64,000 bases of DNA from Macrococcus epidermidis (GTDB lineage Bacteria > Bacillota > Bacilli > Staphylococcales > Staphylococcaceae), in the NCBI RefSeq assembly GCF_003259695.1, contig NZ_PZJH01000002.1:62001-126000 (forward strand), in the 5' to 3' direction. The notes beneath the pieces are model-generated. The model saw only the letters and a program-made list of their open reading frames with translations, ran no database searches and was not told where the DNA came from. Shown here piece by piece: positions 17,229 through 37,881 of this stretch (the stretch's first letter is position 1; each line of letters begins with the position of its first letter). The position numbers and the translations under genes are program-made.

Positions 17229-17292
17229 ATGGTAAAATATTTATTACTAAAAGTAAAGTATTTTTTACTTTTAGTAATAAATATTTTACCAT
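17229..17292. promoter_or_regulatory. Long inverted repeat, paired operators of XRE A
   Basis: A perfect inverted repeat has 29-base arms and a 6-base centre. It contains two 13-base palindromes, TTACTAAAAGTAA (centre 17250) and TTACTTTTAGTAA (centre 17271), exactly 21 bases or two helical turns apart. The central junction reads GTAAA-N6-TTTAC, the same site found twice before XRE C at 51.5 kb. It ends 18 bases before the regulator start. Confidence 0.65.
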
Positions 17293-18688: not shown

Positions 18689-18709
18689 CAATGTCATGTG
18701 GGATTTATT
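18677..18709 (+). terminator. Terminator after the CXXC/membrane gene pair
   Basis: A 13-base stem AATCCCGCATGAC pairs with GTCATGTGGGATT (one G-U) around a 3-base loop. Its right side touches the start of the next inverted repeat. Confidence 0.7.
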
Positions 18710-18754
18710 ATAGTCATTTTGACTAATATACTTGTCAAAATGACTATAATAAAT
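18703..18754. promoter_or_regulatory. Long inverted repeat, paired operators of XRE B
   Basis: Perfect 21-base arms around a 10-base centre. Within it are TAGTCA-TTT-TGACTA (centre 18718) and TGTCA-AAA-TGACT (centre 18739), 21 bases apart. The same spacing is found before XRE A, but the half-site is different (AGTCA). It ends 39 bases before the regulator start. Confidence 0.65.
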
Positions 18755-34320: not shown

Positions 34321-34352
34321 GAATAAAATAAAGTTTGGAAGAGGGGTTATGT

Positions 34353-34712
34353 ATGGCTCAAGATACTTGTGATTTATATTTGTTTGATGTTGAGAAGGTA
34401 AAGCGTGTGAAATCACAACAGGATTTAGTTGATTTAAATCCAGTGCTTGTTATTTATAAAGCCTTAGCAGATGAGAAACGCTTGAAGATTTGCTTTAGTT
34501 TATTACTCGAAGATGAATTGTGTGTATGTGATCTGGCCAATATAATCGATGCGAGTGTCGCTACGACGAGTCACCATCTCAGATATTTAAATCAGGCGAA
34601 AGTGCTTGATTTTAGAAAAGAAGGAAAAAATGCATTCTATCGTTTGAAGGATGATCATATTAAGACACTGATTCGTACAGCTTTAGCGCATGGGGGTGAA
34701 TCTGATGAGTAA
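34353..34712 (+). CDS. cadC: Cadmium/zinc/lead-responsive repressor CadC
   Basis: 119 residues from the ATG after GAGGGG. ArsR/SmtB fold with ELCVCDLANIIDASVATTSHHLRYL; the CVC pair and an N-terminal Cys in QDTCDLYLF form the alpha3N metal site. Plasmid pI258 CadC has DTCEIFC, so the second N-terminal Cys is replaced by Leu here; in the literature that Cys is the least critical of the four. Metal binding releases it from the cad operator. It overlaps cadA by eight bases. Confidence 0.92.
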   Translation: MAQDTCDLYLFDVEKVKRVKSQQDLVDLNPVLVIYKALADEKRLKICFSLLLEDELCVCDLANIIDASVATTSHHLRYLNQAKVLDFRKEGKNAFYRLKDDHIKTLIRTALAHGGESDE

Positions 34713-36780
34713 AGAAGAAACATATCGTCTGGAAGGTTTAAGCTGTACAAATTGTGCTTCTAAATTTGTGAAAAATATTGAAGCGATTCCAGGCGTAGAT
34801 ACAGTGGATTTAAATTTCGGGGCGGCGAAATTGAATGTTACAGGTGACGTCACTGTCGAACAGTTAGAAGCAGCGGGGAAATTTGATCATATTAAAGTAC
34901 GTCCGGCAAATGTAAAGCGCACAAAGAAAGTTCCGTTTTACAAGAATAAAGCGCATTTACCGTTTGCCATCGCTTTGATTCTGTTTCTTGCGGGTTTAAT
35001 CACAAGTTATAATGTTGGTGAAGATAGTCTGTATACGAAAGTGATCTTTATCGCAGCGATTGCAATCGGTGGTTATTCATTATTTATTGAAGGTTTAAAA
35101 CAACTGTTTAAATTAAACTTTGATATGAACGTCTTAATGACCGTTGCAATTATTGGTGCAATGTTAATAGGTGAAGTACAGGAAGGTGCCATGGTCGTCC
35201 TGTTATTTGCAATAAGTGAAGCGCTTGAAGGATACGCGATGGAGAAATCGCGTGACAGCATTCAGAGTCTGATTGATCTCACACCTGAAGTGGCATTAAA
35301 GCGAATTGGTAATGAATATGCAGAAGTTGCTGTAGAAGATTTAAGCATTGGTGACGTCGTGCGCATACTGCCTGGTAAGAAAGTACCGATTGATGGTGTT
35401 GTAATAAATGGTCAGAGCAATGTCAATCAGGCAAGTATTACAGGAGAAAGTATCCCTGTATCCAAAAGTAAAGCTGATGAAGTTTATTCAGGGACACTGA
35501 ATGAATCTGGACAGTTAGAAGTGCGAGTTACTAAACGCAGCCATGAAACTAAGCTTGCGAAGATGATTCATCTTGTGGAAGAAGCGCAAAGTGAGAAAGC
35601 ACCGACACAGAAATTTGTAGATAAGTTTGCGAAATACTATACACCACTCATTATGTTAATTGCGTTGCTTGTAATCGTAATCCCACCATTATTTGGTGGC
35701 GACTTCAAACATTATCTTTACCAAGGTTTATCGGTACTCGTTGTAGGTTGTCCGTGTGCGCTTGTTGTCTCAACACCGGTTGCGATCGTTACCGCAATTG
35801 GTAGTGCTGCACGTCGTGGTATTTTAATAAAAGGTGGTATTCATTTAGAGAACGCAGGTCATATCGATACGATAGCTTTTGATAAGACAGGTACATTAAC
35901 TAAAGGAGAGCCTGTTGTTGTAGAACGTGTTGATTTCACAGCACTAACGCAAGACGAAAAAAATGTTATCTACACCCTTGAAAAAGATGCCGGACATCCA
36001 TTAAGCAAAGCAATCGTGAACAGTCTAACGGATTGTGAAACAGTCGACTTAACAGATTATGAAGTCGTTACCGCTAAAGGGGTACAAGGTATTTATAAAG
36101 ATAAAAAATATCGTATCGGACAACAGAAATTCTTTAATGTAAATGATTCTGATGCACAGAAACTTGCTGAAACAAATAGAAGCGGCGCAACAAAAGTATT
36201 GTTCGGTACAGAAGATCGTATAATCGCTGTCTTCTTTATTCAGGATACACTTCGCGATGAATCAATAGATGTCGTGCGCATGTTGAACAAAGAACGAATA
36301 GAGACACTGATGCTCACTGGTGATAATAAAGCAGTAGCCGATGCAATTGGAAATACGTTATCCATCACACGTGTGCATTCAGAGTTGTTACCTGAAGATA
36401 AGTTGAAATTAATTAAAGACTATCAACAAAAGGGAAGTCACATTGCAATGGTTGGAGATGGTGTCAATGATGCACCGGCACTCGCTCAGGCAGACGTAGG
36501 ATTTTCAATGGGTGGTGCAGCAACTGATACTGCGATAGAGACAGCTGATATTACATTTATGAAAGATGATTTAAGTGATTTACCGAAAGTGATTCGCCTC
36601 AGCAAGCGTACATTAAATATTATCAAACAGAATATCGGATTTGCGTTAGGACTTAAATTAATCGCGATATTACTCGTTATCCCAGGCTGGTTAACGTTAT
36701 GGATTGCGATATTTGCTGATATGGGTGCTACATTACTTGTGACTTTAAACAGCTTAAGATTACTAAGACATAAAGAATAG
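34705..36780 (+). CDS. cadA: Heavy-metal-exporting P1B-ATPase CadA
   Basis: 691 residues from the ATG after GGGGGTG. Order: one HMA domain with GLSCTNCASKF (residues about 9-70), two helices, actuator TGES, the membrane metal site CPCALVVSTP, phosphorylation site DKTGTLTKGE, the HP motif GHPLSKA, and the hinge GDGVNDAPALAQADVG. It exports Cd2+, Zn2+ or Pb2+ from the cytoplasm using ATP. Same order and coupling as the plasmid cadCA operon, but chromosomal here with no mobile element nearby. Confidence 0.94.
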   Translation: MSKEETYRLEGLSCTNCASKFVKNIEAIPGVDTVDLNFGAAKLNVTGDVTVEQLEAAGKFDHIKVRPANVKRTKKVPFYKNKAHLPFAIALILFLAGLITSYNVGEDSLYTKVIFIAAIAIGGYSLFIEGLKQLFKLNFDMNVLMTVAIIGAMLIGEVQEGAMVVLLFAISEALEGYAMEKSRDSIQSLIDLTPEVALKRIGNEYAEVAVEDLSIGDVVRILPGKKVPIDGVVINGQSNVNQASITGESIPVSKSKADEVYSGTLNESGQLEVRVTKRSHETKLAKMIHLVEEAQSEKAPTQKFVDKFAKYYTPLIMLIALLVIVIPPLFGGDFKHYLYQGLSVLVVGCPCALVVSTPVAIVTAIGSAARRGILIKGGIHLENAGHIDTIAFDKTGTLTKGEPVVVERVDFTALTQDEKNVIYTLEKDAGHPLSKAIVNSLTDCETVDLTDYEVVTAKGVQGIYKDKKYRIGQQKFFNVNDSDAQKLAETNRSGATKVLFGTEDRIIAVFFIQDTLRDESIDVVRMLNKERIETLMLTGDNKAVADAIGNTLSITRVHSELLPEDKLKLIKDYQQKGSHIAMVGDGVNDAPALAQADVGFSMGGAATDTAIETADITFMKDDLSDLPKVIRLSKRTLNIIKQNIGFALGLKLIAILLVIPGWLTLWIAIFADMGATLLVTLNSLRLLRHKE

Positions 36781-36791
36781 CTGATTATCAT

Positions 36792-36820
36792 TTGCTTACA
36801 ACGTCACTTATCATTATAAT
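36792..36820 (+). promoter_or_regulatory. Promoter of the leader ORF-yidC2 operon
   Basis: TTGCTT (36792-36797), a 17-base spacer and a perfect TATAAT (36815-36820). The transcript should start near 36827, about 20 bases before the leader ORF. Confidence 0.75.
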
Positions 36821-36846
36821 AAGTTTACTAATAGAAGGAGGTGGCT

Positions 36847-37119
36847 ATGTTGGAACTGTTACTCAGTTTATTGAGTGAAGCATTATTGCTCAAATATATT
36901 ACATTTCGTTTGTTGTATCTGGTACCATACATTGCCGCCTTCTTATTCGTATTATTACATTTAAAGCTTCAGTTACAAGTGGGTCAGAAATGGTCTTTAA
37001 CTGAATGTGTTGGGAATGTTTTGGAACAAACAATTATTATTTTCTCACCTGTACTGAGATGGCGTATTAAGTGTTTATCTAAGATGAGCGATGAAATAGA
37101 GGCCGTTCCTATATATTAA
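36847..37119 (+). CDS. MifM-like membrane-insertion monitor (putative arrest peptide)
   Basis: 90 residues from the ATG after GAAGGAGG. A hydrophobic N-terminal region (about 4-38) forms one or two membrane segments, followed by a polar linker and a C-terminal part, SPVLRWRIKCLSKMSDEIEA, ending VPIY. Its last codons and stop lie in the 5' arm of a hairpin that covers the ribosome site of the yidC paralogue downstream. Position, size (MifM is 95 residues), topology and an Arg/Ile/Met then acidic C-terminus parallel Bacillus subtilis MifM, whose ribosome stalls unless it is inserted by YidC. The function here is inferred; MifM residues were compared from memory. Confidence 0.6.
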   Translation: MLELLLSLLSEALLLKYITFRLLYLVPYIAAFLFVLLHLKLQLQVGQKWSLTECVGNVLEQTIIIFSPVLRWRIKCLSKMSDEIEAVPIY

Positions 37120-37141
37120 TCAAACATTAATATATAGGAGG
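37108..37141 (+). promoter_or_regulatory. Translational-control hairpin over the yidC2 ribosome site
   Basis: Perfect 13-base arms CCTATATATTAAT / ATTAATATATAGG with a CAAAC loop. The 5' arm contains the leader ORF stop codon (37117-37119). The 3' arm runs into AGGAGG (37136-37141), the Shine-Dalgarno of the next gene. A ribosome paused near the end of the leader would open it. Confidence 0.75.
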
Positions 37142-37149
37142 AGAAATAT

Positions 37150-37881
37150 TTGAAAAGATTTTTTAGTGTACTTATCGTATTAACATTGATATTAAGTGGT
37201 TGCGGGGCACAAGATGACGGTTTGTTTCATAACGGCATCGTCCAACCATTTACGGATTTAATTACTTTCTTTGCTGGTTTCTTTGCTGGCAGTTACGGTA
37301 TGGGAATCGTACTAGTAACGTTATGTGTACGCTTTATGATGATGCCGATGATGCTGAGCACTGTTAAACAACAAAAGAAGATGCAGGCAAATATGAAAGT
37401 TGCCGGTCCAAAAATAAAAGAGATACAAGATAAGATGAAACTAGCAAAAGACCCGGAAGAAAAGAGCGTATTATCGCAGGAACTTATGAAAATATACGGT
37501 GAACATAATATTAACCCAATGAACATGGGTTGCTTACCAATTATCGTTCAGATGCCGATATTGACCGGTTTATACTTTGCGATCATACACAGTAAATCAA
37601 TTGCAGCACAAAGCTTTCTCTGGTTTAACCTTGGTACGCCTGATCTGTTGATGATGCTCATTGCAGGTGGACTATATTTTCTCCAGTCATGGATTTCTAT
37701 ACAATACATGCCTGAAGAAAGCCGCAAACAGATGTGGCCGATGGCGATAATGAGTCCATTGATGATTATATTTATCAGTTTCCACTCGCCAGCAGCGTTA
37801 CCGCTTTACTGGTCGGTTGGCGCAATTGTGTTAATCTTCCAGCAATTTATTTCTAATAAACTATTTAGTGATATTAAATAA
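37150..37881 (+). CDS. Membrane protein insertase YidC2/OxaA paralogue
   Basis: 243 residues from a TTG after GGAGGAG. Lipoprotein signal with Cys18 in LILSGCGAQ, then five helices. The conserved hydrophilic-groove Arg is in TLCVRFMMMPMM; a cytoplasmic hairpin (KQQKKMQANMKVAGPKIKEI, to about 120) follows, then NPMNMGCLPIIVQMPILTGLYFAI. Inserts membrane proteins with or without Sec. It is shorter than the usual 255-290 residues at the C-terminus. The leader ORF and hairpin suggest it is a conditionally made second YidC (inferred; a first copy is not in this window). Confidence 0.88.
   Translation: MKRFFSVLIVLTLILSGCGAQDDGLFHNGIVQPFTDLITFFAGFFAGSYGMGIVLVTLCVRFMMMPMMLSTVKQQKKMQANMKVAGPKIKEIQDKMKLAKDPEEKSVLSQELMKIYGEHNINPMNMGCLPIIVQMPILTGLYFAIIHSKSIAAQSFLWFNLGTPDLLMMLIAGGLYFLQSWISIQYMPEESRKQMWPMAIMSPLMIIFISFHSPAALPLYWSVGAIVLIFQQFISNKLFSDIK

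Follow-up and report, generated by a model that had tools for sequence, protein, structure and literature searches.

Does Macrococcus epidermidis regulate its second YidC insertase through a leader peptide that arrests its own ribosome? In Bacillus subtilis, the MifM-YidC2 (YqjG) system, in which an arrest peptide is encoded upstream of yidC2, is experimentally established (PMC6037786). A sequence-only reading of a 64,000-nucleotide stretch of the M. epidermidis genome (hereafter, the window) had proposed the same architecture for a plus-strand locus that comprises a promoter, a 90-codon open reading frame (ORF) with an N-terminal membrane segment, a hairpin, and a gene for a YidC-type insertase. 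The last of these elements was confirmed: yidC2 (37150–37881; TTG start, 243 amino acids) encodes a YidC/Oxa1 insertase with a lipoprotein-like signal, which matches Pfam 60KD_IMP (PF02096; E = 2.4e-38) and TIGR03592 (2.1e-45), and it is the second of two YidC genes in the window genome (G000, contig 22; 2.49 Mb).

The putative YidC-monitoring arrest peptide is encoded at 36847–37119, with an ATG at 36847, a TAA at 37117–37119, and a Shine-Dalgarno sequence, AGGAGG, at 36836–36841. As the reading had stated, the ORF encodes 90 amino acids with an N-terminal membrane segment: residues 18–36 (36898–36954) form the top 19-residue hydropathy window (KD mean 2.05). Hydropathy and charge balance, with acidic residues before the segment (approximately residues 17–36) and basic residues after it, predict a type I, N-out/C-in orientation, and the pattern is alike across 15 aligned homologues and the Bacillaceae leaders. 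From the segment to codons 85–90 there are about 50 residues, compared with a median spacer of 54 residues for MifM in a 2024 survey (PMC10987492). The leader is under purifying selection, with a pN/pS of 0.21 within groups over the whole ORF. Searches of Pfam and NCBIfam with the protein returned no match, nor did the leader alignment when used as a profile against the PDB; B. subtilis MifM was found in the PDB via its motif (3j9w).

Between the leader and yidC2 lies a hairpin (37107–37139) that is predicted to hide the yidC2 Shine-Dalgarno sequence. Its 5′ arm (TCCTATATATTAAT, 37107–37120) contains the leader stop codon, its loop is CAAAC, and its 3′ arm (ATTAATATATAGGA, 37126–37139) runs into AGGAGG (37136–37141), which is paired in the fold and precedes the TTG start by eight bases. 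The arms form 14 perfect pairs plus one U-G pair, one perfect pair more than the 13 originally noted. None of 200 shuffles was equally stable (z = -4.45). Perfect hairpins of at least 13 bp numbered 13 in the real window versus none in ten Markov-simulated 64-kb windows, and inspection showed that only the leader hairpin has an AGGAGG-bearing 3′ arm before a gene. Two others in the window are unusually long (29 bp at 17229–17292 and 21 bp at 18703–18754). Pairing at the leader hairpin is also conserved: all 168 alignment cells pair (100%, 15 sequences), with two compensated pairs, while slid partners pair in 31–50% of cells and none of 500 shuffles matched the covariation score. Specifically, the changes CCT/CCA and ATA/GTA in the last leader codons are each mirrored by a complementary change in the 3′ arm. 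The codons for Pro88-Ile89-Tyr90-stop (37108–37119) thus appear doubly constrained, by the peptide and by the hairpin; the peptide ends in P-[IV]-Y-stop at 15 of 15 loci, and pS is 0 within groups for codons 88–90, as opposed to 0.476 across the whole ORF. The most divergent locus, L018 (genome G009, from a fourth genus), has a leader of 100 amino acids that overlaps yidC at GTGA and a hairpin of different sequence, yet there the leader CGTCCT pairs with AGGACG overlapping the Shine-Dalgarno sequence, which is again covered.

Because the leader stop codon lies within the 5′ arm, any terminating ribosome opens the hairpin, and this counts in favor of plain translational coupling, whereby terminating ribosomes would briefly expose the start region and a basal level of YidC2 would be made with neither programmed arrest nor sensing. 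The joint conservation of leader and hairpin is likewise consistent with coupling. However, coupling needs an open frame only, and the C-terminal part of the leader is conserved as protein. An arrest-motif candidate, residues 70–85 (LRWRIKCLSKMSDEIE, 37054–37101), emerged from the aligned homologues as L-x-W-R-[IT]-[KR]-C-L-[SA]-...-D-[ED], which is kept while codons drift. L70, W72, R73, L77, and D82 are invariant in 15 of 15 aligned sequences, divergent L018 included, and in a codon comparison of 15 loci C76 joined them as a fixed residue. Synonymous codons differ at L70, R73, C76, L77, and D82 (R73 is encoded by CGT, AGA, CGG, or CGC), and Trp has a single codon. Between groups, pN/pS is 0.33 for residues 68–85 versus 0.85 for the linker (residues 39–67). 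The motif ends in an acidic cluster (DEIE/DEED, residues 82–85), which places the leader among sequences with an acidic cluster at residues 70–100 of a Firmicutes yidC upstream ORF, the criterion for MifM given in PMC10987492. Since W72, R73, C76, L77, and D82 are preserved as amino acids along with the acidic cluster, and more tightly than the linker, we consider coupling without arrest improbable. The likeness to the "Arg/Ile/Met" character of the MifM stall region, on which the sequence-only reading had drawn, proved mostly coincidental, in that Met80 is confined to the window and its nearest relative (other leaders have Q, T, L, or S there) and Arg-Ile follows the Trp here while it precedes the Trp in MifM.

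Mammaliicoccus and Macrococcus are animal-associated relatives of Staphylococcus. Besides the window genome, 15 of the 60 relatives that were sampled carry the leader, at 33–97% identity and across four genera, that of the window genome included. Named carriers are Macrococcoides goetzii (whose leader shares 97% identity with the window leader) and Macrococcoides caseolyticum; Macrococcus hajekii, bovicus, and equipercicus; and Mammaliicoccus lentus, stepanovicii, and sciuri. At all 16 loci the leader lies directly upstream of a second yidC, which starts at most about 35 bases from the leader stop codon or overlaps it. Within Macrococcoides, Mammaliicoccus, Macrococcus, and the fourth genus, the leader is present in 16 of 16 genomes with two full-length YidCs and in none of 8 genomes with one YidC; a search for it on plasmids found none. 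This strict co-occurrence, together with the membrane segment and conserved cytosolic tail, would also fit a stable small membrane protein that serves as partner or subunit of YidC2 and is merely co-translated with it. Such a partner would leave unexplained both the covarying hairpin that buries the Shine-Dalgarno sequence and the frozen synonymous sites of codons 88–90, and the equivalent position in B. subtilis is occupied by an arrest peptide (PMC6037786), so we regard this role as very improbable. The transcribed spacer does contain a perfect 14-bp hairpin, but a role for it as intrinsic terminator or other RNA switch, with the ORF incidental, is scarcely credible, as the hairpin is followed by AGGAGGAG with no U tract, a terminator scan makes no call, an Rfam search gave no family match, and the leader is under purifying selection.

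The locus also behaves as a unit. In the sister genome G008 (L167), the alignment stops after 36778 (93.6%) and resumes at 37875 (95.7%); the interval between is missing, and the genes on either side, which encode a P-type ATPase and an arylformamidase, are joined directly. Because G008 lacks exactly 36779–37874, the promoter region, leader, hairpin, and yidC2 constitute one all-or-nothing module of about 1.1 kb, the ends of which are marked by a short imperfect repeat (TAAAGAAT/TAAATAAA). An operon for an ArsR-family regulator and a P-type Cd/Zn-type ATPase (34335–36780) lies directly upstream. The promoter within the module is less certain than initially described: the possible site at 36792–36820 (TTGCTT-17-TATAAT) has a perfect -10 element with only three of six matches at -35, and a scan showed that promoter-like sites at the locus are not more frequent than in shuffles.

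Returning to arrest control, we evaluated where a stalled ribosome would have to reside. With the leading edge set 15 bases beyond the first P-site base, the established toeprint distance, the computed geometry leaves the Shine-Dalgarno sequence paired when the P-site is at codons 80–82, half free at codon 83, and free from codon 84. Since it is freed only from codon 84, the pause at codons 80–86 that had been suggested begins about four codons too early; in this modelled geometry, its later part (codon 84 onward) could open the hairpin and codons 80–83 could not. B. subtilis MifM stalls at codons 89–92, starting at the final acidic residue of DEED and continuing for three more codons (PMC6037786, PMC4423224). 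Aligned by the acidic cluster (residues 82–85), the equivalent codons in the leader are 85–88, and aligned by the Trp, which lies 16 residues from the first stall in MifM, the equivalent is codon 88. The two registers agree at Pro88, which is thus the most likely stalling codon.

We propose that the hairpin, whose 5′ arm is made up by the last leader codons and stop, keeps the yidC2 Shine-Dalgarno sequence hidden. When YidC is working, the N-terminal segment would be inserted, and the resulting pulling force would let the ribosome finish the leader and leave, after which the hairpin would refold. When insertion capacity is low, the motif W72-R73-x-[KR]-C-L-[SA]-...-acidic 82–85 would stall the ribosome with its P-site within codons 84–90, most likely near Pro88, and the stalled ribosome would cover the 5′ arm, thereby freeing the Shine-Dalgarno sequence and permitting YidC2 synthesis. 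We hold it to be highly probable that arrest upon insertion failure opens the hairpin and switches on YidC2 in this manner. Taken together, conservation, hairpin covariation, leader/yidC2 co-occurrence, and geometry strongly support both the mifM-yidC2-type architecture that had been claimed for the locus and the mechanism predicted from it, which makes MifM-type arrest control of yidC2 by the leader very likely on sequence grounds.

We also examined the ancestry of the insertase. In the YidC tree, the leader-linked YidCs are united in a single clade (support 99) and the Bacillaceae YidC2s form a grade, a topology that does not settle orthology of the leader-linked YidC with Bacillus YidC2. 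The second YidCs of Staphylococcus were considered as leader carriers and rejected, as they have no leader, lie in different neighbourhoods, and cluster in the tree with the primary YidC of that genus. In Staphylococcaceae, the primary yidC adjoins a thiE-like gene (L001, from the window genome; L035; and L041), and its product and Bacillus SpoIIIJ fall at opposite ends of the tree, with the YidC2s between; the primary yidC may itself have arisen from within the YidC2 lineage.

Stalling by MifM in B. subtilis depends on Met90 of ribosomal protein uL22; hydrophobic residues are tolerated there, Lys is most harmful, and lineages with R, Q, K, or H at this position were judged unlikely hosts of MifM stalling (PMC4423224). 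Unlike the B. subtilis host, all Staphylococcaceae genomes checked have Gln90 rather than Met90, a host trait as opposed to a strict criterion for the family; outside Staphylococcaceae, Met90 occurs in 11 of 12 genomes carrying YidC2 leaders. On M90K ribosomes, a MifM T72R variant, altered at the residue before Trp73, recovered about 60% of the induction (PMC4423224). Of 15 loci, 11 have Arg before the leader Trp, and those of the M. caseolyticum group have Ile; the sixteenth locus, L018, has Lys. The residue after the Trp is Arg at all loci. A basic residue before the Trp may be a natural compensation for Gln90, an idea drawn from one clade. A general correlation between uL22 and leader was not upheld by independent cases, as Cys precedes the Trp in G199, the one Gln90 genome outside Staphylococcaceae, and Ile takes the place of Arg in the M. 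caseolyticum group. That the leader is an arrest peptide adapted to Gln90 ribosomes via this basic residue (R71) is a tentative suggestion that we consider rather unlikely to hold. What the locus offers is a conserved leader of MifM design on Gln90 ribosomes, which differs in spacing and has a basic residue at the site of a laboratory suppressor, and such natural pairs of leader and ribosome make directly testable how arrest peptides keep up with ribosome changes. If the proposal holds, YidC2 should also be under feedback control in Mammaliicoccus and Macrococcus, for which we found no report in the literature searched.

How closely does the leader resemble MifM? Occurrence outside Bacillus, part of the original proposal, is not new in itself, since the 2024 survey, which covered more than 30,000 genomes, records MifM in 592 genomes of Firmicutes (572 sequences; PMC10987492); our literature search found no report naming MifM together with Macrococcus. 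At five Bacillus mifM loci that we compared, the leaders are approximately 93–95 amino acids long, the hairpin begins in the last leader codons, the TAA stop lies in or beside the 5′ arm, about 30 nt separate stop and start, and yidC2 starts with TTG at four of the five (L073 is ambiguous, with an upstream GTG or TTG). Like MifM, the leader is an upstream ORF of 90–95 codons with one N-terminal segment, acidic before and basic after, and with a C-terminal Trp and acidic cluster close to the stop; in both systems a hairpin covers the Shine-Dalgarno sequence, and yidC2 mostly starts with TTG. Unlike MifM, it ends in P-[IV]-Y-stop, and its Trp-to-acidic spacing is 10 rather than 13 (12–13 in other Bacillaceae leaders). 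Of the MifM motif RIxxWIxxxxxMNxxxxDEED, it contains the Trp and the acidic cluster, three residues closer together; R69-I70 and M80-N81 are without counterparts at the same spacing. Alignment with MifM homologues by hhalign was not significant (probability 3.7%, and 8% against 11 Bacillaceae leaders), although the latter alignment is collinear over residues 1–85 with Trp on Trp, and the leader and MifM profiles failed to find each other's genomes among 399 Bacilli genomes searched. That the leader works like MifM is well supported by these shared sequence features, and that it is a MifM homologue is plausible and unproven.

A positional survey, in which we applied a YidC2 profile to 220 Bacilli genomes and added one earlier single match, showed that varied leaders precede YidC2 in several other families; most of these leaders combine a Trp and basic residues with an acidic cluster that follows the Trp by 12–13 residues. 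At four Bacillaceae-type loci (L141, L144, L145, and L146), leaders of 123–128 codons read through the Shine-Dalgarno sequence (Gly-Gly) and end inside yidC2, so the stalled-ribosome model must differ there. The YidC2-class genes of family f6 (L123, L126, L128, L131, L133, L135, L137–L140, L142, and L143) have no MifM-type leader, and in most a gene with an AraC-type-regulator-like end lies directly upstream, which suggests that transcriptional control took over from translational control. Among more distant systems, CliM (uC_KYxIW) of Clostridia is, like the leader, a YidC-monitoring arrest peptide with an N-terminal membrane segment and a hairpin over the yidC2 start region (PMC13183943), and it differs in its motif, K-Y-x-I-W. 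ApcA of Actinobacteria is also an arrest peptide encoded upstream of yidC (PMC7897499, PMC13183943), although its RAPG-type arrest sequence is absent from the Staphylococcaceae leader. Finally, whereas SecM and VemP monitor Sec export with other motifs and other target genes, they follow the same regulatory logic, in which arrest opens a hairpin.
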